Under the pieces are notes generated by a model. It did no database searches. It was not told where the DNA came from and was given only the letters and a program-made list of their open reading frames with translations. A DNA stretch of 42,208 nucleotides from IMG/VR virus record IMGVR_UViG_3300017917_001443, positions 1-42,208 of that record. The stretch is one strand, 5' to 3'. Origin of the DNA: a virus. The translations under genes were made by a program, and so were the position numbers. This document shows positions 14,953-26,361 of this stretch, in pieces (positions within the stretch are counted from its first letter, which is position 1; each line of letters opens with the position of its first letter).

Positions 14953-17900
14953 ATGGCAGCTATATTTCAACTAAGAAGAGGAACATCAAATGTAACACTT
15001 GCAGATGGTGAATTGTATTTACACAAAGGAAGTGGTTCAATTCAATTTGGTAGTGGTTCGAGTAATGTAATTACATTGTTACCATTGGATGTACCTGCAT
15101 ATGGTAATGTTAATTTAATTGGTAACATTTCTGCTTCTGGTGATGTGAGAATTGGTGGAAACATTTATTTAGGTAATGCCTCAGCTGACAATATACAAGC
15201 TTTAGGTCAATTTACTACAAATCTTATTCCAAATGGTACTATTGATATTGGTACCACATCGGCTCCTTGGACAAATGTATATGCAAATAGAATATCTGCA
15301 TCGGTTATTACGGGTTCTTTTAGTGGTAGTATTAATGGTGTTGAGTTTACAACATTCTCAACTTCAGTAGATGTTAGATTAGACCAATTAGAAACCGATT
15401 CTGGTTCACAAAATACAAGAATAACTGGTTTAGAATCTAAAGCTACTACATTACAAACTTATACTGCAAGTGTTAATACAAGAATTGACCAACTTGCAAT
15501 ATTTACAGGTTCATATGCAACAACTGGTTCAAATGTATTTGTAGGAAATCAAAATATTACTGGTTCATTTATTGTTAGTGGTTCAAATATAGAACTTAAA
15601 AGAGATTGGCCTGCAGTAGGAACTGAATCTCATTTTTTAAGACTTGCACCATTTACATCATCAACTGGTAGATATTATGATGGATTGAGTGTTGGTGTTG
15701 AACATTGGAATGATGGTGAGGGAACATATGAACATTCATTATTAATTCACTCTTTTGATGATGATACTGTTCAAAATTATGGTGCTGAACTTAATGTAGG
15801 GCCGTATAGAACTCATATGAGAGTTTATCCATCTGGTTCAAATGGTAGTTTGACAAATGTGTCAGTACAAGAATTATCAAACGGAAAAACTCAAGCATTA
15901 GTATATGGTGATTATGTACAAATTGGTGCACTTGTTGGACAAGATATTTTAATAGGTAATACTGGTTCATTAATTACTGTTAGTGGAAGTAATATGTTAC
16001 TTCACACACCATTAACATCTTCATATGCAATTGTTTCAACATTATTTAGTGGTTCAATTAGTGGTATTGGAAATGTAACGGAATTTAGTTCATCAATATC
16101 TAATAAATTTGAAACAATATCAAATGTTACAACTTCATTTGATAATAGATTGGATAGATTAGAAGAAAGCACACAATCTTTAAATGACTATTCACAATCA
16201 TTAAAAGATGCAATTGATGTAACTGGAGGTGATACAAGAATAAAAGGAAACTTAATAGTTGATGGTACACAAACTTCTTTAAATACAACAAATACCTATG
16301 TTGAAGATAAGTCAATAACATTGGCAAGTGGTTCAACCAATTCAAGTATTGCAGATGGTGCTGGTTTTAACATTGCGGGTGCAAATGTTTCAATGAGTTG
16401 GGAAGATGGAAACCAAAGATTATATTTTAATACAAATTTAGGTATACAAGGTTCAATAAGTTCATCTACAATAATTGGTTTAAATGGAGTAAGTGTAAAT
16501 GTATACTCTACATCGGTTGATAGTAGATTATCAAATTTACAATCAAAATCTGCAAGTGTGGATGGTCATATTGTAGATATTAACACATATACTGGTTCAA
16601 ATGATATTTTAAATGCATTACAAACTACAAGAATTGACCAATTAGCTGCATCAACTGCATCGGTTAATTCATTTAGTTCATCAGCAACGGCAAGTATTGT
16701 TGAATTATTTGGTAGTTCTTCAAATCACGAAAATAGAATCGATGGTTTAGAAACTAAATCAAATACAATTGAAATATATACGGCAAGTGTTGATGTTTCT
16801 ATTTCTAATTTAAATAATTTTACATCATCACAAAATGAAAAAGATGTAGTTATTTCAAATATAACATCTTCATACAATTCATTTACAGGTTCAGCAACAG
16901 CAAGTATCGTTGAATTATTTGGTAGTTCTTCAAATCACGAAAGTAGAATAGATAGTTTAGAAAATAAATCAGTAACATTAGAAACTTATACTGCTAGTGT
17001 TGAAAATAGATTTACAACAATATCGGAAGTAACCACTTCATTAAATTTACATACTGCTTCATTAAATTTATTTACATCATCTACTTACTCTAATTTTAGT
17101 CAGTCAGTAGATAATAGATTAGATAACTTAGAATATACAACCTCAATCTTAACTCCAGAAGGACAGGCTGAAGCATTTAATGCAATAAATACCTTTACAG
17201 GTTCTGCAAATAATAGATTAAATAATTTAGAATTAACTTCCGCATCATTAAATTTGTGGAGTTCGTCTTTAAATACAACATTTGCAACCGATAGTGAATT
17301 AACATCGGTTTCAACATCAATATCAACATCTATTCAAAGTTTAAGTCAATCTTTGGATGGTAGATTAGACCAATTAGAAAGTGATTCTGGTTCTCAAAAT
17401 ACAAGAATTAATACTTTAGAAACAAAATCAAATACACTTCAAGCGTATACTACAAGTTTGGATGAACATGTTTTTGATATAAACACTAAAACTGGTTCAT
17501 TTGAAACTAAATTCTCTACATTAGCAAATTATACAAGTTCAAATGATACATTAAATTCGTTACAAACTACGAGAATAGACCAACTTGCTGCTGGAACAGC
17601 ATCGGTTAATTCTTTCACTGCATCTGCAGATAATAGATTGGATGTTATTGAAACAACATATGCAACAACGGGTTCTAATACATTTAACGGAAACCAAATC
17701 ATATCTGCATCGGTTTATGTAACTGGTGATATGATTGTATATGGTTCATCTTCATTACAAAATGTAACTGCATCTGCAGTATCAATTGGTACTAATACGG
17801 TAATTCTTAATACGGATACACCGGCCGTTAGATTTGGTGGTGTTTCGGTGGCAGATAGTGGAAGTGGTGCAGGTGTTAGTGGTTCATTGTTCTGGGATTC

Positions 17901-18801
17901 ATTAAATAACAACTGGATTTACCAACATCCAACCGGTGGTCCTGAAGGTGGAATGAGTGCAATATTAATTTCTGGCCCTAAAAACTCTGGTTCTTTAGGT
18001 GACGAAGCTCATATAACATCGGAAAGATTGATGGTGGCGTTGGGTGATGACCATATTGGTAATTCAAACATTTATCACAATGGAACAATTACTGCATTTG
18101 CTGGTAATTTGGAAGTAACTGGTTCAACAACTTTAGGAACGGTAAACATTACTACTTTAAATGCATCAAATGGTGTAGTATCTGGTTCATCACAAGTATT
18201 AGATATTTTATCATCATTAAATACATATACCGGTTCAAATGATACATTAAATTCATTACAAACTGCAAGAATTGACCAATTAGCTGCATCAACTGCATCG
18301 GTTAATTCATTTACATCATCTATTGATACTACAATAAAAACTAAATTGAATGTAGAAGGTGTAGTATCTGGTTCGTCTCAAATTACATTATCTTCAACAA
18401 CTGGTGGTGGAACAACTGCAAATGTTCAATTTGGTTCATTAGGAATTGGAACTACTGCAAGTGGTGTTAGTGGTGAGATTAGAGCAACTGGTGATATCGT
18501 AGCATTCTATTCATCTGACGAAAGATTAAAAGAAAATATCCAACCGATTCAAAACGCATTATCAAAAGTTGAATCAATTAGTGGTAACACATACGATTGG
18601 AAAGAAGGATTTGAAACAATACATTCACATACTGGACATGATTTGGGAGTAATAGCACAAGAAGTTCAATCAGTATTACCAGAAGTAGTAACTGAAAGAG
18701 AAACTGGATATTTGGCAGTTGATTATGTGAAGTTAGTTCCTGTCTTAATTGAAGCGATAAAAGAATTATCTGCAAAAGTTAAGGAATTGGAAAATAAATA
18801 G
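14953..18801 (+). CDS. Long tail fibre with C-terminal S74 self-cleaving chaperone
   Basis: A 1282-residue fibre, the longest in the window. The N-terminus FQLRRGTSNVTLADGELYLH has the shared attachment signature. The body mixes TGS beta-repeats, a complex module near residues 215-330 (RDWPAVGTESHFLRLAPF, GLSVGVEHWNDGEGTYEHS), and long coiled-coil runs with repeated 'ATASIVELFGSSSNHE' and 'RIDQLAASTASVNSF'. The two modules shared with the 811- and 649-residue fibres also occur. The last 95 residues are an intramolecular chaperone of the Peptidase_S74 family: SDERLKENI at 1188-1196, GNTYDWKEG, DLGVIAQEVQSVLPEVV, ending in a coiled coil. Ser1188 and Lys1193 have the spacing of the catalytic Ser-Lys dyad, so cleavage just before Ser1188 is expected after trimer folding. 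Confidence 0.88.
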   Translation: MAAIFQLRRGTSNVTLADGELYLHKGSGSIQFGSGSSNVITLLPLDVPAYGNVNLIGNISASGDVRIGGNIYLGNASADNIQALGQFTTNLIPNGTIDIGTTSAPWTNVYANRISASVITGSFSGSINGVEFTTFSTSVDVRLDQLETDSGSQNTRITGLESKATTLQTYTASVNTRIDQLAIFTGSYATTGSNVFVGNQNITGSFIVSGSNIELKRDWPAVGTESHFLRLAPFTSSTGRYYDGLSVGVEHWNDGEGTYEHSLLIHSFDDDTVQNYGAELNVGPYRTHMRVYPSGSNGSLTNVSVQELSNGKTQALVYGDYVQIGALVGQDILIGNTGSLITVSGSNMLLHTPLTSSYAIVSTLFSGSISGIGNVTEFSSSISNKFETISNVTTSFDNRLDRLEESTQSLNDYSQSLKDAIDVTGGDTRIKGNLIVDGTQTSLNTTNTYVEDKSITLASGSTNSSIADGAGFNIAGANVSMSWEDGNQRLYFNTNLGIQGSISSSTIIGLNGVSVNVYSTSVDSRLSNLQSKSASVDGHIVDINTYTGSNDILNALQTTRIDQLAASTASVNSFSSSATASIVELFGSSSNHENRIDGLETKSNTIEIYTASVDVSISNLNNFTSSQNEKDVVISNITSSYNSFTGSATASIVELFGSSSNHESRIDSLENKSVTLETYTASVENRFTTISEVTTSLNLHTASLNLFTSSTYSNFSQSVDNRLDNLEYTTSILTPEGQAEAFNAINTFTGSANNRLNNLELTSASLNLWSSSLNTTFATDSELTSVSTSISTSIQSLSQSLDGRLDQLESDSGSQNTRINTLETKSNTLQAYTTSLDEHVFDINTKTGSFETKFSTLANYTSSNDTLNSLQTTRIDQLAAGTASVNSFTASADNRLDVIETTYATTGSNTFNGNQIISASVYVTGDMIVYGSSSLQNVTASAVSIGTNTVILNTDTPAVRFGGVSVADSGSGAGVSGSLFWDSLNNNWIYQHPTGGPEGGMSAILISGPKNSGSLGDEAHITSERLMVALGDDHIGNSNIYHNGTITAFAGNLEVTGSTTLGTVNITTLNASNGVVSGSSQVLDILSSLNTYTGSNDTLNSLQTARIDQLAASTASVNSFTSSIDTTIKTKLNVEGVVSGSSQITLSSTTGGGTTANVQFGSLGIGTTASGVSGEIRATGDIVAFYSSDERLKENIQPIQNALSKVESISGNTYDWKEGFETIHSHTGHDLGVIAQEVQSVLPEVVTERETGYLAVDYVKLVPVLIEAIKELSAKVKELENK

Positions 18802-18844: not shown

Positions 18845-20794
18845 ATGGCACTTAAATTTAGACGTGGGACAACCGCACAGAAATCAGGTTCGTTAGCATT
18901 CGGAGAACCATATGTGAATACCACATTGGGAACATTACAAATCGGACTTGAAAGTGGGGATGTAACTCTTTCATCAACAGGTACGGGTAGTAATTTAGTA
19001 GTTGGTGGAATCTCAGGTTCTTCATTAAACATTACTGGAAACGCAAAAGTAGATGGTAATTTATCATTAGGTGGACAACTTACAATTGGTGACAATACAT
19101 CTGATACGGTAAATGTAGTTGCATCTTTAAGTTCATCTCTTATTCCATCCGAAACAAATGCATTCGACTTAGGTTCTTCAACAAAAATTTGGAGAGACTT
19201 ATATCTTTCAACAGCTTCAATCAAATTAGTTGATGGAAGTGGTGTGGTTGTGAATACCATTACAAATACAAATATCGTAACAACTGATAGTATTGCAAGT
19301 GGTAGTATCACATTAACAAATTCATTACCAACTGGAGTAGTTTCTGGTTCATCACAAGTGGTTGGTATATTGAATTCTGTAAATTCATATACATCCTCAT
19401 TAAAAAGTGCATTATCAGTTAGTGGTGCAGATTTGACGGTGTTAGGTAATTTGACTGTACAAGGTGATACAACTACAATTAATACCGCAAACTTACTAGT
19501 AGAAGACCACATAGTTGAAATTGCAATTGGTGCAAACACATCTTTAGAAGCTAATGGTGCTGGTCTTCGTATCCCTGGTGCAGATGCAATTATTAGATGG
19601 AGTCATACTGGTTCAGCATGGTCTTCTAATAAATCATTTGATGTCGTAGGAGATATAACAGTTAGTGGTACAGTTGATGGTGTTGATGTTGCATCATTAA
19701 ATTCAAATATAAACACATTTACTGCATCACAAGAAACTAAAGATTCGACTTTAGCAACTTATACGGGTTCAAATGATACAAAATGGTCTACATTAGATTC
19801 ATTGAGTGGTTCGTTTGCAAGAACAAATTCGACAAATATATTTAATGGTAACCAAACTATTACAGGTTCGTTATATGTAACACAAGATTTAGTAGTTGCC
19901 GGTTCATCATCTATTCAAAATATTAGTTCTTCAAATTTAGTAATTGGAACAGCATATGTAACTTTAAATACAAATAGTCCATCATCTAGATATGCTGGGT
20001 TGTTAATTACAGACAGTGGTTCAGCGGGTTCTTCTGGTTCATTCTTATATGATTCGGTACAAGATGAGTTCATATTTGTTCACAAAGGAAACGGAACAAA
20101 TGTAACATCTTCACATTTCGTATTAGGTCCTGAAACATATGATAATTTAGGAAACGAAACTTATCTTACAAGTAATAGAGTACCAAAAGGAACTGGTAAA
20201 GAACATTTAAATGATTCAAATATTACTGACAATGGTACAACGATTACTTTGGGTTCTAATACTGTTGTAACTGGTACAATAGTTGCAAGTGGAACCACTT
20301 TAATTTCTGGTTCATCACAAGTTTCAATACAATCTACAACTGGATTTGGAACATACTTAAATCAGGGAGTATTAAGTACATCGGATGTAAGACACAATTC
20401 ATTGGGTATTGGTATGGCTGCATCAACAACTACTGGTAGAATTGATGCAAGTGGAGATATCGTTGCATACTCAACTTCAGATAGAAACTTCAAAGAAAAC
20501 ATTACTCCAATTCCAAACGCATTAGAAAAGATTTCTAAAATTAGTGGTAACACTTACGATTGGAAAGAAGATATGAAAGATTTCCACGGATTTGAAGGAA
20601 ACGATGTCGGTGTAATTGCACAAGAAATCGAAGAAGTATTACCACAATTGGTAACTACAAGAGAAACGGGATATAAGGCAGTTAAATACGACAAATTGGT
20701 TGCATTATTAATTGAAGGTATTAAAGAACAACAAACACAAATACACAATTTAACTTTAGAAGTTGAAAATCTAAAGAAACAAAAAGGGTTATAG
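18845..20794 (+). CDS. Second tail fibre with C-terminal S74 self-cleaving chaperone
   Basis: A 649-residue fibre. The N-terminus LKFRRGTTAQKSGSLAFGEPYVN carries the common attachment signature. It then has a TGS-rich shaft; the module VQGDTTTINTANLLVEDHIVEI with NGAGLRIPGADAIIRW; a short ASQETKDSTLATYTGS coiled coil; and the module LYVTQDLVVAGSSSIQNISS with SRYAGLLITDSGS. The C-terminal ~105 residues are an S74 chaperone: SDRNFKENI at 545-553, SGNTYDWKEDM, GVIAQEIEEVLPQLV, TGYKAVKYDKLVALLIEGI, and a final coiled coil. Ser545 and Lys550 fit the catalytic dyad. It is the third fibre with the same two central modules but half the length of the 1282-residue one. The glycosyltransferase gene begins 3 bases after its stop. 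Confidence 0.88.
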   Translation: MALKFRRGTTAQKSGSLAFGEPYVNTTLGTLQIGLESGDVTLSSTGTGSNLVVGGISGSSLNITGNAKVDGNLSLGGQLTIGDNTSDTVNVVASLSSSLIPSETNAFDLGSSTKIWRDLYLSTASIKLVDGSGVVVNTITNTNIVTTDSIASGSITLTNSLPTGVVSGSSQVVGILNSVNSYTSSLKSALSVSGADLTVLGNLTVQGDTTTINTANLLVEDHIVEIAIGANTSLEANGAGLRIPGADAIIRWSHTGSAWSSNKSFDVVGDITVSGTVDGVDVASLNSNINTFTASQETKDSTLATYTGSNDTKWSTLDSLSGSFARTNSTNIFNGNQTITGSLYVTQDLVVAGSSSIQNISSSNLVIGTAYVTLNTNSPSSRYAGLLITDSGSAGSSGSFLYDSVQDEFIFVHKGNGTNVTSSHFVLGPETYDNLGNETYLTSNRVPKGTGKEHLNDSNITDNGTTITLGSNTVVTGTIVASGTTLISGSSQVSIQSTTGFGTYLNQGVLSTSDVRHNSLGIGMAASTTTGRIDASGDIVAYSTSDRNFKENITPIPNALEKISKISGNTYDWKEDMKDFHGFEGNDVGVIAQEIEEVLPQLVTTRETGYKAVKYDKLVALLIEGIKEQQTQIHNLTLEVENLKKQKGL

Positions 20795-20797
20795 TTA

Positions 20798-21802
20798 ATG
20801 TATGACATTTATTACACCACCGCTGGAGGACCTTGGTTTAACAGTGGTGCTGATATATGGGTAACTAATTGGATAAAGGAAGTGGCACCTAATTTAGAAG
20901 TTAAGCCACTTCTTTTATTTCATAGAAAGAGGCCAAACAATTACGAAGAATTTCCAATTGATATAGACCACGTTTGGGAAACGGATGAATTAAAAATAGA
21001 TGAGTTATTAAAGGGTGCAAGAAAAATTCACATATTACATGGTCATTACACACCAACAACTGCAATATACAATAATATAGATAAAATTGATTCAATCGTA
21101 TTTCACAATTTGACTAAAGTATCGTTAGTAGGTCAAATGAATAAAGATGAATATTTGCATTGGTATGGGAATTGGGAATGGGAAAGTGAATTAATAAATA
21201 AAGTTAAAAATAAAATTTGGATAGGATTATATAATTTTCCATATCAAACGGATAAATTACATATTATTCCAAATTATTACGAATTTATAGAAGAAAAAGA
21301 ATTGTCTAAATCTACCAAAGTAGGATTTGCAGCAAGAGTTGAAGGTAGAAAAAATGTGGAATATATAGATAATATCGATTCGGTATTGTTTACAAATTCA
21401 GAAACATTAGACAAATATTATATAAAAAAATATGGATACAAATTTCAAAAAAGTAGAATTTATAAATTTAAACACAAATATAAAGAAAACTTTTACAAAC
21501 TTGATTGGGGAATATCTCACTCTTGCTTTGAATATGAACCATTTGGATATGGAATATTTGAAGCAGTCGATTGGGGTAAATTACCAATATTACATGAAAA
21601 CTGGCATGTTCCACTTGATTACAAATACAAGGCAAAAAGTAAAGAAACATTTGATAAAACCTATCAAACCATTTGTGAAGACAGTTGGGAAACGAAGTAT
21701 AATGAATTTGAAAAACTTAAAAGTTGGATGAAACAACATTTTTCAGACAAAGAAAGTTGGAAACAAAAACTTTTAGATATTTATAACGAGAATAATATAT
21801 AA
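20798..21802 (+). CDS. GT-B glycosyltransferase (GT4-like)
   Basis: A 334-residue enzyme-like protein among the fibre genes. The N-terminus has GGPWFNSGADIW, a substrate-loop pattern resembling that of GT-B enzymes. The C-terminal half carries the GT4 features: KVGFAARVEGRKN at 174-186 (the 'GR...KG/KN' strand after the domain linker) and EPFGYGIFE at 247-255, an E-x7-E motif that in the family contacts the nucleotide-sugar and the acceptor, followed by AVDWGKLPIL. A retaining transferase using a nucleotide-sugar is expected; the sugar cannot be told. It follows the S74 fibre by 3 bases and precedes the Hint/LamG gene, so its acceptor could be Ser/Thr residues of the fibres, though modification of host surface or of DNA is also possible. 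It has no membrane segment. Confidence 0.75.
   Translation: MYDIYYTTAGGPWFNSGADIWVTNWIKEVAPNLEVKPLLLFHRKRPNNYEEFPIDIDHVWETDELKIDELLKGARKIHILHGHYTPTTAIYNNIDKIDSIVFHNLTKVSLVGQMNKDEYLHWYGNWEWESELINKVKNKIWIGLYNFPYQTDKLHIIPNYYEFIEEKELSKSTKVGFAARVEGRKNVEYIDNIDSVLFTNSETLDKYYIKKYGYKFQKSRIYKFKHKYKENFYKLDWGISHSCFEYEPFGYGIFEAVDWGKLPILHENWHVPLDYKYKAKSKETFDKTYQTICEDSWETKYNEFEKLKSWMKQHFSDKESWKQKLLDIYNENNI
21777..21785 (+). promoter_or_regulatory. Candidate late promoter element ATATTTATA
   Basis: An exact copy inside the last codons of the glycosyltransferase gene, 21 bases before the ATG at 21807. It would allow separate expression of the Hint/LamG gene. Confidence 0.45.
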
Positions 21803-21806
21803 AAAA

Positions 21807-23525
21807 ATGGCAAGAACTGATTTATCTTTAGGAAATTTATATAGAGCCGTAAGTGGTTCTGCAAGACCAGGTGCAGTTTCAATGGGTGCATTGAGTGGAA
21901 ATAGTAGTAATAGTTCATTTATTGGTTTTGCAACCGATGGAGTTACTGTTACACCACCTACTTTTACATATATTGTAGAAAGTACAACCGAAAATGCACA
22001 ATTTTCATTTAACTCAACTGGTTCTTTGTTTTATTCAAAAGTTCAACAACAATTAAATAACTATACTTGTTCTTTTAATAACTCAAACTTTACAACTGGT
22101 TCAAAAACATTTGGAACAGGTCCTTCGGTTTTTCCAATCACTCCTGCAGCAATTAACGCATCTAACTATTCTGAAGCTTCTGCAGTTTTGACAATGAAAT
22201 ATGAAGATGGATATAATATAAATGCAACAAACTACGGAACAGTTTCTACAAAAACATTATATGCAGTTGATGTTTATAACACAATCAACGAACCAGATTT
22301 TTGTTTATTATTCGGAACTAAAATTCAATTAGCAAACGGAAGTGAAATAAATGTAGAAGATTTACAGGTTGGTGATGTAATTAAATCTTGGGTTCCTGCA
22401 GGTTTACCTGATGAAAACCAAGACTCAGAAAGTGACCAAGTTGAATGGAGATTTCATTATTCCGATGATTTAGAAGGTAATTCACAAAATGTAACCGTAA
22501 AGGATATTACTTTTAATTTTGCAGAAGGATATTTTTCTTTAAATAATGGTTTAATAAATGCAACCGAAACTCACCCATTATATGTTTGGGACAATGAAAT
22601 TTCTAAATACAAGTTTAAAAATGTAGGTGATATATTACCTGGAGATAGACTTATCATGCAAGACCAAACTGAAGTTGAAGTTACTAATATTGAAATTATA
22701 ACATCTGATGTCGAAATTGTAACTATAAATGTGGAAAATGCCGATGTGTATATTTCAAATGGTTTAATTTCACACAATAAAGGAACAACAACACAACCAT
22801 ACATTCCATCTTCTGGATTAAGAATGTACTTAGACCCATCTAAAGCATCTTCTACAAATGGAACGGATACAACCGATTGGTTAGACCTTTCTGGTTATAA
22901 TACAGGTGTAAGACCGGCCGGTGTATCAAACGCAGCAGGTATTAGTGGTGGAAACCCTGGATATAACGCAGGAGCAACTAGAAAAGATAAATATTTTACA
23001 GGTAACGGAACAAACCAATTCTGGTATAAGGATACTACTTCAAATATCAATGGTGGATTAACACAATTCAATACTAACACAGGTACAATTCATATGTGGA
23101 TTAGACCTACAACATTGGGAACTACTACAAGACATTTATTTGATTATGCTGGATATTATGGCATGGCATTGGAATCATCTAATAGTTCTGCATTGGATAG
23201 ATTAAAATTTTATGGAAGTGGATTGGGAAATAGTGCACAAATTACTGTAACAATACCATCTGCAAATGTTTGGAGTATGATTTCAGTAGCATTCCAACCA
23301 TCCGGAACTTGTACATTCTACATTGACGGAAGTTCAGTTGGAACATTTACATCATCTGCATTTACGGCACCATCATCAACTAACTATTTGACAATTGGAA
23401 CCAATAGTGCAAGAACAACTTTCTATAATGGACAGATAGGGCCAGTATTGTTCTATAATACATTACAAGATTCAACAACAGTTGCACAGGTTTATAATTA
23501 TTTCTCTCCAACATATAAGGTATAA
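21807..23525 (+). CDS. LamG adhesin with internal Hint (intein-like) domain
   Basis: A 572-residue protein with three parts. Residues 1-165 are a Ser/Gly/Asn-rich structural domain. Residues 166-324 are a Hint domain. It opens with Cys166 in CLLFGTKIQLANG, then INVEDLQVGDVI (block A). Block B holds NATETHPLYVW with the T-x-x-H motif (Thr253, His256), followed by VGDILPGDRLIM. Block F is EIVTINVENADVYISNG, and the domain ends GLISHN with His323-Asn324. The +1 residue is Lys325, not Cys/Ser/Thr. Residues ~330-572 form a LamG-like domain (SSGLRMYLDPSKAS, LDLSGY, IHMWIRPTT, CTFYIDGSSVG, GQIGPVLFYN), paralogous to 8538-9266. There is no homing endonuclease insert. A cleaving rather than splicing, BIL-type domain is inferred, which would separate or re-join the adhesin and its N-terminal anchor. 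Confidence 0.8.
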   Translation: MARTDLSLGNLYRAVSGSARPGAVSMGALSGNSSNSSFIGFATDGVTVTPPTFTYIVESTTENAQFSFNSTGSLFYSKVQQQLNNYTCSFNNSNFTTGSKTFGTGPSVFPITPAAINASNYSEASAVLTMKYEDGYNINATNYGTVSTKTLYAVDVYNTINEPDFCLLFGTKIQLANGSEINVEDLQVGDVIKSWVPAGLPDENQDSESDQVEWRFHYSDDLEGNSQNVTVKDITFNFAEGYFSLNNGLINATETHPLYVWDNEISKYKFKNVGDILPGDRLIMQDQTEVEVTNIEIITSDVEIVTINVENADVYISNGLISHNKGTTTQPYIPSSGLRMYLDPSKASSTNGTDTTDWLDLSGYNTGVRPAGVSNAAGISGGNPGYNAGATRKDKYFTGNGTNQFWYKDTTSNINGGLTQFNTNTGTIHMWIRPTTLGTTTRHLFDYAGYYGMALESSNSSALDRLKFYGSGLGNSAQITVTIPSANVWSMISVAFQPSGTCTFYIDGSSVGTFTSSAFTAPSSTNYLTIGTNSARTTFYNGQIGPVLFYNTLQDSTTVAQVYNYFSPTYKV

Positions 23526-23593: not shown

Positions 23594-25825
23594 ATGGCAG
23601 AAAAAATTGTATCACCAGGCGTATTCACCAAAGAAAACGACCTTTCATTTTTACAACAAGGTGTAGCTGAAATAGGTGCAGCATTCATTGGCCCTTTCAA
23701 AGAAGGCCCATTAGTTCCAACAATCGTTAATTCACAAACCGAGTTTGAAACTTTGTTTGGAGCAGTAGATGGAACTTATTATACTGAATTAGCAGTACAA
23801 AATTATTTAAGAGAAGCAGGAACAGCAACTATTTGTAGAGTAGCTGGAGTTGATGGATATACCGAAACAGCTCCTTTATTATTAACAGTAGCATCAGCAT
23901 CAGTAACTGCATCAGTTGGTATCTTATTTAATACTACATCTGGTTCAAACGCAGGTTTTGCAGGAACAACTGTAGCACCAAACGGAAATGGTGATTTCTT
24001 ATTATCAGGTTCAAATGCTGGTTTATTATCTGCATCTTTGGATTCTTCTGATACAAATGATATCGAAGCGGTATTTGGAACATCTCCTTATGGTTCTAAA
24101 AAACCTTATGTATATGGTTTCTTCAAAAATCATAGTGTAGTATTTGATTCAAATGCAACTGCATCTGTAACTGTTTTGGGTAACCAATCATTCACAATGG
24201 ACGCACAAGAAGCTTTGACTCCAATGATTCAATCACAATTGATTAGTGGTGAAAGATTTAACTTATTCCAATTTGAAACTTTAGGAGCTGGAAATAAAGC
24301 AAACACTAAAATTAAAGTTGGTATCACAAATATTAAAGCTGCAGGTTCTATAAACGGAACGGATTACGGAACATTTACAGTTGTAGTTAGAGCATATGAC
24401 GATACTAATAAGAAAAAGAATGTATTAGAAACATGGGCAAATGTAAATTTAGACCCTAATTCTCCAAACTATATTTCAAGAGTAATCGGTGATAGAAAAT
24501 TAACAATTGATTCAACTGGTAAAATAACTGAATCTGGTGATTGGGTAAACAATTCAAAATATGTTAGAATTGTAAACTTAAACGAAAACTCTCCAGTTCA
24601 AGCAGTACCATTTGGTCACGCAGCTTATCAATTACCAATATCTGCATCAACTGCAGTATCTGCTTTAGTACCTGCAGTAACTTATGTAAGTTCTTCAGCA
24701 ACAGTATATGGTGGTATTGATTTAGATGGTAACACAGACAACTCAATCTATTTGAAACCAATTCCAGTAGGTGCAACAACAGGTGCAAACGCTGTATTTG
24801 GATTGGACGCATCAAATGGTGGTTCATTATCGGTAGGTTCTTCAGTAGCACAATTCGTTGTAGCATTCCAAGAAGGTTTTGATGGTATGAATCCAGCAAC
24901 TCCAATTTATAAAGGAGCTGACATAACTTCAGGAAACTCACAAGGTTTTAATTTATCATCTTCAACAGCAAGTGGTTCAGTAGCATACGCTAAACATATT
25001 AACGCTTTATCTAACGCAGATGAGTGGGATATCAATATGGTAGTAACTCCTGGTGTTGTAAGAAGATTACACTCTTCAGTAGTAACTGATGTTTTGGATA
25101 TGGTTGAAGAAAGAAATGATTGTTTCTATATTATGGATTCAACATCGGTAAGTGATTCAATTTCACAAGCAACAACTCAATCTGACGCTGTTGATTCTAA
25201 TATGGTAGCAACTTACTATCCTTGGGTTAAAACAATTGATGTTAACACAAACAAATTAATATCAGTTCCACCTTCAGTATTATTACCAGGTGTATTCGCA
25301 AGTAACGATAGAGTAGCAGCTGAATGGTTCGCACCAGCGGGTTTGAATAGAGGTGGTTTGACAGGAGCAGTTAGTGTATTGAATAGATTAACTCAATCTG
25401 AAAAAGATACATTATACGAAGCAAAAGTTAACCCAATCGTTCAATTCCCAGGTCAAGGTATCGTAGTATTCGGACAAAAAACATTACAAGATAAACCATC
25501 TGCATTAGACAGAATCAATGTAAGAAGATTGTTATTAACTGTAAGAAAGTACATTGCATCTACTTCAAGATATTTAGTATTTGAACAAAATACTTCTGAA
25601 ACAAGAAATAGATTCTTAAACATTGTTAACCCTTACTTAGAGGCAATCCAACAAAGACAAGGTTTATACGCTTTCAGAGTTGTAATGGATGAAACTACTA
25701 ACACACCAGATGTAGTTGATAGAAACATTATGAAAGGAGCTATTTACTTACAACCAACTAAGACAGCTGAATTCATTCAAATTGATTTCAACATCTTACC
25801 AACTGGAGCAGCTTTTAACGGATAA
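23594..25825 (+). CDS. 18: Tail sheath protein (gp18-like)
   Basis: A 743-residue contractile tail sheath protein. The N-terminus MAEKIVSPGVFTKENDLSF, followed by GAAFIGPFKEGP and LFGAVDGTYYTELAVQNYLREAG, is the classical sheath start that provides the strand exchanged between neighbouring subunits. The C-terminus has QGIVVFGQKTL, ALDRINVRRLLLTVRKYI, FEQNTSETRNRFLN, QGLYAFRVVMDETTNTP and the closing GAIYLQPTKTAEFIQIDFNI, all typical of the conserved inner domain. It is somewhat longer than T4 gp18 (659), with the extra length in the exposed middle domains (about residues 100-400). Codons are richer in C-ending forms than in the fibre genes, fitting high expression. It has its own promoter motif and is followed by the tube gene. 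Confidence 0.95.
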   Translation: MAEKIVSPGVFTKENDLSFLQQGVAEIGAAFIGPFKEGPLVPTIVNSQTEFETLFGAVDGTYYTELAVQNYLREAGTATICRVAGVDGYTETAPLLLTVASASVTASVGILFNTTSGSNAGFAGTTVAPNGNGDFLLSGSNAGLLSASLDSSDTNDIEAVFGTSPYGSKKPYVYGFFKNHSVVFDSNATASVTVLGNQSFTMDAQEALTPMIQSQLISGERFNLFQFETLGAGNKANTKIKVGITNIKAAGSINGTDYGTFTVVVRAYDDTNKKKNVLETWANVNLDPNSPNYISRVIGDRKLTIDSTGKITESGDWVNNSKYVRIVNLNENSPVQAVPFGHAAYQLPISASTAVSALVPAVTYVSSSATVYGGIDLDGNTDNSIYLKPIPVGATTGANAVFGLDASNGGSLSVGSSVAQFVVAFQEGFDGMNPATPIYKGADITSGNSQGFNLSSSTASGSVAYAKHINALSNADEWDINMVVTPGVVRRLHSSVVTDVLDMVEERNDCFYIMDSTSVSDSISQATTQSDAVDSNMVATYYPWVKTIDVNTNKLISVPPSVLLPGVFASNDRVAAEWFAPAGLNRGGLTGAVSVLNRLTQSEKDTLYEAKVNPIVQFPGQGIVVFGQKTLQDKPSALDRINVRRLLLTVRKYIASTSRYLVFEQNTSETRNRFLNIVNPYLEAIQQRQGLYAFRVVMDETTNTPDVVDRNIMKGAIYLQPTKTAEFIQIDFNILPTGAAFNG

Positions 25826-25872: not shown

Positions 25873-26361
25873 ATGCCAGAAATATTAGAGTTTGATAAAA
25901 TGTTTTATAAGAATTTTGAACCAAAACTTGGTAACAGATTCATTATGGAAATCAACGGTATTGAGTCATACATTATCAAAACAGCAAATAGACCAACTTA
26001 TAGTTCAGAGCCTGTTGTTTTAGACCACATAAATGTACAAAGAAAGATTAAAGGTAAATCTACATGGGATGATGTAAACATTACTCTTTATGACCCAATT
26101 GTACCATCAGGAGCACAAATGGTAATGGAGTGGATTAGACAATCACATGAGTCGTTAACAGGTAGAGATGGATACGCTGCTTTCTATAAGAAAGACATCA
26201 CTTTCTACTTATTAGGACCAGTTGGTGATAAAGTAGAACAATGGACTTTAAAAGGTGCATTTATCTCTCAAGCTAACTTTGGTGAATTGGATTGGAGTAC
26301 AAATGACCCAGTTTCAATTGAATTACAAATATCTTACGATTACGCTATTTTAGAATACTAA
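25873..26361 (+). CDS. 19: Tail tube protein (gp19-like)
   Basis: A 162-residue tube protein, essentially the length of T4 gp19 (163). It begins with a short FDKMFYKNFEPKLGNRFIMEINGIESYIIKTA pattern (LGNRF-x-M-x-I-x-G-I), followed by RPTYSSEPVVLDHINVQRKIKG and VNITLYDPIVPSGAQMVMEWI. It ends with a strand pair GAFISQANFGELDWST and PVSIELQISYDYAIL. This is the beta-barrel fold that stacks into hexameric rings around the tape measure and shares ancestry with T6SS Hcp. It has its own promoter motif and a strong terminator, consistent with a high-copy virion protein; codon choice is also biased to C-ending forms. Confidence 0.93.
   Translation: MPEILEFDKMFYKNFEPKLGNRFIMEINGIESYIIKTANRPTYSSEPVVLDHINVQRKIKGKSTWDDVNITLYDPIVPSGAQMVMEWIRQSHESLTGRDGYAAFYKKDITFYLLGPVGDKVEQWTLKGAFISQANFGELDWSTNDPVSIELQISYDYAILEY

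Follow-up and report, generated by a model that had tools for sequence, protein, structure and literature searches.

Type A bacterial intein-like (BIL) domains, known from variable bacterial proteins, lack a nucleophile at the +1 position that follows their terminal Asn. They mostly cleave, and they can ligate through attack of the released alpha-amine on the thioester at the N-terminal end (PMC4031507; PMC7664689). BIL2 of the Tetrahymena protein BUBL1 has been reported to join its N-terminal flank to a lysine side chain through an isopeptide bond (PMC8616854). Both belong to the Hint superfamily, as do inteins and the hedgehog Hog domain. Searches of open-access papers turned up no account of BIL or Hint domains in phage tail proteins; subscription journals could differ.

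The window, that is, the whole stretch of DNA analyzed, is a 42,208-bp virus record. On its plus strand, at 21807-23525, lies a gene for a Hint-containing, tail adhesin-like protein of 572 amino acids, with about 130 distinct homologues that all share the order N-domain, Hint, LamG. The N-terminal structural domain (residues 1-165; 21807-22301), delimited by the alignment and modeled with high pLDDT to about residue 156, ends across the family in ...LYAVDVYNTIN(E/Q)PDF, after which comes Cys166. The Hint or BIL-like domain (residues 166-324; 22302-22778) opens with this Cys166 (22302-22304), the putative thioester-forming residue. Its block B is Thr253-x-Thr255-His256 (TETH; 22563-22574), and block G supplies His323-Asn324 (22773-22778), the putative site of Asn cyclization. 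Lys325 and Gly326 (22779-22784) occupy the +1 and +2 positions and begin the C-terminal domain (residues 325-572; 22779-23522), which has a LamG/concanavalin-like lectin fold and matches PF13385 over residues 419-553 (E 2.2e-15) in the Pfam search. An earlier note on this DNA had given the reading frame, each of these catalytic residues, and piece lengths of 165, 159, and 248 residues, all of which proved exact; the layout it proposed, with the Hint domain between a structural N-terminus and a LamG domain, agrees with the three-domain structure model and the PF13385 match.

Is the central segment a Hint domain? The profile search that the note had proposed gave a divided answer. In Pfam, the reading frame matched Hint_2 at E 0.016 and Intein_splicing at E 0.047, and the search of PHROGs matched PHROG 38766, a family of "virion structural protein" with a C-terminal Hint, at E 1.2e-7, but both Pfam scores are under their cut-offs, and generic Hint and intein profiles in general score below the curated Pfam/NCBIfam thresholds. 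BIL2 was matched weakly by profile search (E 0.045), sequence identity to it is about 22%, and phmmer run directly against the PDB returned chance matches only. By themselves, the sequence profiles are marginal support for a Hint domain. An AXH match in Pfam (E 2e-4), also sub-cut-off, overlies the Hint and was treated as cross-similarity.

It is the predicted structure that settles the Hint fold. A full-length model, built with an alignment of 75 relatives, has a mean pLDDT of 85 and three domains, and its low-confidence linkers (residues 157-163 and 326-328) coincide with both Hint junctions. The Hint modeled alone is of moderate confidence (pLDDT 72). Foldseek with this model against the PDB gave 53 matches at E<=0.001, the best 50 of which all belong to the Hint superfamily and span inteins, BILs, and hedgehog. 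The top match is BUBL1 BIL2 (6y75; E 1.5e-9) and the next is the Clostridium thermocellum BIL (2lwy). A search with the full-length model returned lectin-like and BIL matches, the latter with a TMt of 0.84, and no ubiquitin match. The Hint/BIL assignment of the earlier note is upheld in that, although the profile matches are sub-cut-off, the predicted fold best matches BILs.

In the features of sequence and fold that were compared, the domain is BIL-A-like. With type A BILs, such as that of C. thermocellum (2lwy), it shares the Hint fold, a similar size, Cys1, TxxH, the C-terminal His-Asn, and the absence of Cys, Ser, or Thr at +1; it differs in being part of a phage tail protein, in its invariant Lys-Gly at +1/+2, and in forming a fixed family with conserved synteny. 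BUBL1 BIL2 (6y75, 6tmm), the best structural match, likewise lies between two independently folded domains, though these are ubiquitin-like, whereas here they are the N-domain and LamG, and isopeptide chemistry has been demonstrated for BIL2. The PHROG 38766 proteins of Erwinia, Dickeya, and Yersinia jumbo phages are tail-region structural proteins whose Hint also carries Cys1, TxxH, and HN, but they have a collagen-like N-terminal part, and their Hint stands at the extreme C terminus, with Thr or Val at +1 and 10 to 12 residues after the HN. In polymorphic toxins, Pretoxin HINT (PF07591) likewise precedes an exchanged C-terminal module; here that module is a lectin (LamG) or fibronectin-III (FN3)-like binding domain, and a toxin domain was not found in it. 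The hedgehog Hog domain is without a C-terminal Asn and is followed by a sterol-recognition region, in contrast to the HN and LamG of the present protein, which sets the two apart.

How firmly are these features held within the family? Scans of IMG/VR gathered several hundred loci, and in all 113 distinct proteins compared (family identity, 55-90%) C166, T253, T255, H256, H323, N324, K325, and G326 are invariant. Synonymous codon changes occur at every one of these residues except Cys166, which is TGT throughout: His323 is CAT or CAC, Asn324 is AAC in 69 and AAT in 44, Lys325 is AAA in 107 and AAG in 6, and Gly326 is GGA, GGT, or GGG. Because the residues are invariant despite the synonymous changes, constraint on the catalytic set and on Lys325-Gly326 is placed at the protein level, and on this sequence comparison chance is ruled out as the source of the Hint motif set. 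The Hint has a median dN/dS of 0.25, its flanks 0.31 and 0.33; as dS is partly saturated, only purifying selection is claimed from these values. The intact catalytic set described in the earlier note is thus a property of the family: loss of Cys166, His256, or Asn324, which would have spoken against a Hint domain, was seen in none of the 113, and the question it had raised in advance, whether homologues keep a non-nucleophilic +1 residue, is answered by Lys325 in every one.

The architecture is just as regular. An intact relative with no Hint was not found among several hundred ORFs within reach of the scans, and every ORF reads N-Hint-LamG apart from truncated contigs, L140 (a frameshift), L133 (a frame break), and the single contig that carries L200 and L339. 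In the last, an in-frame TGA at residue 317 (L200 5955-5957) lies seven residues ahead of the HN; the adjoining genes are open, and sequencing error and mutation are both possible. Beyond these viral loci, a scan of bacterial genomes with the Hint alignment gave 11 pattern matches and zero relatives, a plasmid search gave zero matches, and tblastn of the whole protein against 50,697 phages found nothing beyond distant Hint-only matches.

The family is mosaic, with breakpoints that fall at the Hint borders. Pairwise identities correlate at 0.64, 0.72, and 0.76 within domains and at 0.06-0.35 between them, with minima at the Hint borders (N/Hint, 0.15; Hint/C, 0.18). The C-domain is fast evolving and exchanged, whereas the protein as a whole is a conserved family. 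Diverged orthologues with the same synteny (L445, L478, L503, and L504, with L460 cut at its start) are 32% identical to the present protein over residues 2-326, beyond which they carry a different, fibronectin-III-like C-domain, so that the C-terminal module is swapped just past His-Asn-Lys-Gly. Their glycosyltransferase upstream is 44-45% identical and their sheath downstream 50-59%, and they retain Cys1, TSEH, and HN. These orthologues were found by a DNA pattern that required HNKG, and the conservation of K-G (and HN) in them was rejected as independent evidence since the search had selected it. Recombination at the Hint borders was also considered as proof of function and is weakened by the fact that the sheath gene recombines internally as well, with low linkage both within it and around it: the thirds of the sheath gene at 23594-25825 show low mutual linkage among relatives (0.08-0.38), amounting to strong internal mosaicism. 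Phage genes may in general be mosaic at the edges of domains, and the breakpoints flanking the Hint could be an instance of this.

Lysine at +1 is recurrent, not universal, among phage Hints that end in HN. A separate phage protein family (~625-925 amino acids), found without selecting for Lys, has a single Hint or several in tandem, and its C terminus reads ...VHN-K or ...VHN-KV; its inner Hints read HN-KFC, HN-RA/RF, HN-FK, or HN-C. It is co-encoded on two large contigs that carry the present adhesin family. Its members include L226 (minus strand, 607-2913), L227, L364-L380, and L387; in L226 the first Hint is without Cys1, and in the last, HN-K or HN-KV directly precedes the stop codon. The HNKG-requiring pattern brought in further unrelated proteins. 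Phage proteins unrelated to the adhesin thus share the HN-Lys ending, some with one lysine as the entire C-extein, and Lys at +1 may therefore be a functional amine. The peptide that recovered the multi-Hint family (VEDNHNFY) also brought in inteins, all of them with Cys at +1. In the phage LR756508, inteins of a portal-like protein have Ser and Thr at +1 and the tail Hint has Lys; the portal-like protein (L212; LR756508 145130-148399) apparently holds several inteins, with HN-S and HN-T ends plus one more Cys start, and the ORF preceding it shows another intein end, HN-C. Elsewhere in large phages, the +1 residue of C-terminal Hints is Thr, Val, Met, or Ala. In Erwinia, Yersinia, and Alcaligenes phages, collagen-like tail proteins (L205 3104-4543, L361 2107-3549, L362 2107-3540, and L360 2041-3471; about 55 phage records) have a C-terminal Hint followed by 10 to 12 residues. 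Phage NCTB encodes three neighboring C-terminal or stand-alone Hint proteins (L206 569-4483; L211, minus strand), and a homologue of its 1304-amino-acid protein in an Erwinia phage is without a Hint. In Erwinia and Alcaligenes phages, the homologues of the NCTB protein named "Large intein domain protein" were set aside, as the Hint is absent where they were fully read.

What might such a domain do in a tail protein? The reading we favor, with moderate confidence and from sequence and modeled fold, is a fixed, type A BIL-like self-processing domain that matures the tail adhesin: the chain would be cut at Asn324, a thioester would form at Cys166, and ligation, hydrolysis, or both would follow. 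Autoprocessing, whether by ligation or by cleavage, is favored because all residues needed by the BIL reactions are present and constrained. Cys166 would attack the carbonyl of Phe165, with the N-S acyl shift to a thioester aided by Thr253 and His256. Asn324, aided by His323, would cyclize and release the C-domain, which would now begin with Lys-Gly. The thioester could then be resolved by the new amine of Lys325, giving a ligated N+LamG adhesin of 413 amino acids, or by water, giving two separate parts. A mixture of products would be expected, as in type A BILs, and ligation and cleavage have about the same chance of predominating. The statement in the earlier note that standard splicing cannot finish stands for the branched pathway but goes too far otherwise, since type A BILs can still ligate their flanks (PMC4031507). 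On sequence grounds, these phages probably cut or re-join the putative adhesin during particle building, and the domain would serve as a joint for self-maturation, with a conserved N-domain that docks to the tail on one side and a receptor-binding domain open to exchange on the other.

Several other readings compete with such a joint. One is that the domain only cuts, at one or both ends, leaving the parts non-covalently associated or releasing the LamG lectin with no ligation. Cleavage products predominate in characterized type A BILs (PMC4031507; PMC7664689), and ligation would be nearly pointless in the several phages whose Hint stands at the extreme C terminus with 1 to 12 residues behind it. 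The conserved 248-residue C-domain and the invariant K-G suggest, however, that the C-terminal product matters, and pure cleavage is possible but the less probable outcome. Another is amine transfer in the manner of BUBL1 BIL2, in which the Cys166 thioester would be attacked by Lys325 or by a lysine of a tail partner to yield an isopeptide-fixed adhesin. BIL2 is the nearest structure and has published lysine isopeptide formation (PMC8616854), Lys is invariant at +1 in the 113 proteins, and the multi-Hint family, recovered with no requirement for Lys, closes with HN-K or HN-KV just before the stop and has HN-KFC at inner Hints. Yet identity to BIL2 is about 22%, the lysine of BIL2 sits in a flanking ubiquitin-like domain and not necessarily at +1, and the present Lys might do no more than leave readily or play a structural part, so that cross-linking is rather doubtful. 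The class of Hints with Lys at +1 could be an ATP-free virion protein ligase that passes an N-domain thioester to a lysine amine, of Lys325 or of a partner tail protein, and so covalently mounts or swaps receptor-binding modules; this too we consider unlikely.

Two further readings were weighed. Folds are recruited as spacers in phages and the profile scores are weak, which could fit a catalytically idle structural spacer with a Hint fold; the catalytic residues nonetheless never vary in a family of 55-90% identity, although their codons do, Cys and TxxH are retained even at 32% identity, and an idle spacer is improbable. An ordinary selfish intein degenerated at +1 would account for the Hint fold and the block A, B, and G motifs, all shared with class 1 phage inteins. 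In contrast to these, the present domain has no +1 nucleophile and no homing endonuclease, an empty allele was not found within the scans, and the host protein is neither a replication nor a packaging enzyme. The non-nucleophilic Lys is moreover invariant, whereas inteins brought in by the VEDNHNFY peptide have Cys at +1, and this origin is very improbable.

If the type A BIL-like domain is active, intein-type chemistry would serve virion assembly, not parasitism, in these aquatic tailed phages, and the domain would be a natural junction for the exchange of receptor-binding modules. It may also yield new ligation tools with no Cys/Ser scar. The recurrent Lys at +1, unpredicted by the textbook mechanism, raises the question of whether this lysine is the acceptor amine. 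What is new here is a BIL-like Hint with an invariant Lys-Gly in a phage tail protein; Hint/BIL chemistry itself was already known.

The adhesin gene sits in a stable, plus-strand neighborhood. Two tail fibers with C-terminal S74 self-cleaving chaperone domains lie upstream (14953-18801 and 18845-20794; PF13884 and PHROG tail-fiber matches); in role, these chaperones are comparable to the proposed Hint joint. Next comes a GT4-like glycosyltransferase (20798-21802), which has zero Pfam matches and is recognized by the motifs E-P-F-G-x2-I-F and G-x-A-x-R-x-E-x-R-K, conserved in 95 sequences. Downstream are the tail sheath (23594-25825; PF04984, phrog_23) and tail tube (25873-26361; phrog_4542). 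The glycosyltransferase is directly upstream of the adhesin gene in 86 of 86 testable loci, comprising 30 scored as adjacent and 56 scored as "elsewhere" owing solely to a few-base overlap of stop-to-stop ORFs, and the sheath adjoins the adhesin gene downstream in 120 of 127. Among the 50,697 phage records, the glycosyltransferase has a single relative, which comes from LR756508, an uncultured phage of 484 kb, and stands directly downstream of a 432-amino-acid protein with a Hint at its C terminus (...FHN-KH-stop). That Hint has lost its block B His, a point against the self-processing reading, and a search for close relatives of the protein found none. The glycosyltransferase and fiber genes pointed out in the earlier note are confirmed by these profile and motif matches, and its idea of an adhesin-maturation unit gains from the adjacency in all 86 loci, from the diverged orthologues, and from LR756508. 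The glycosyltransferase at 20798-21802 may glycosylate the Hint-bearing adhesin.
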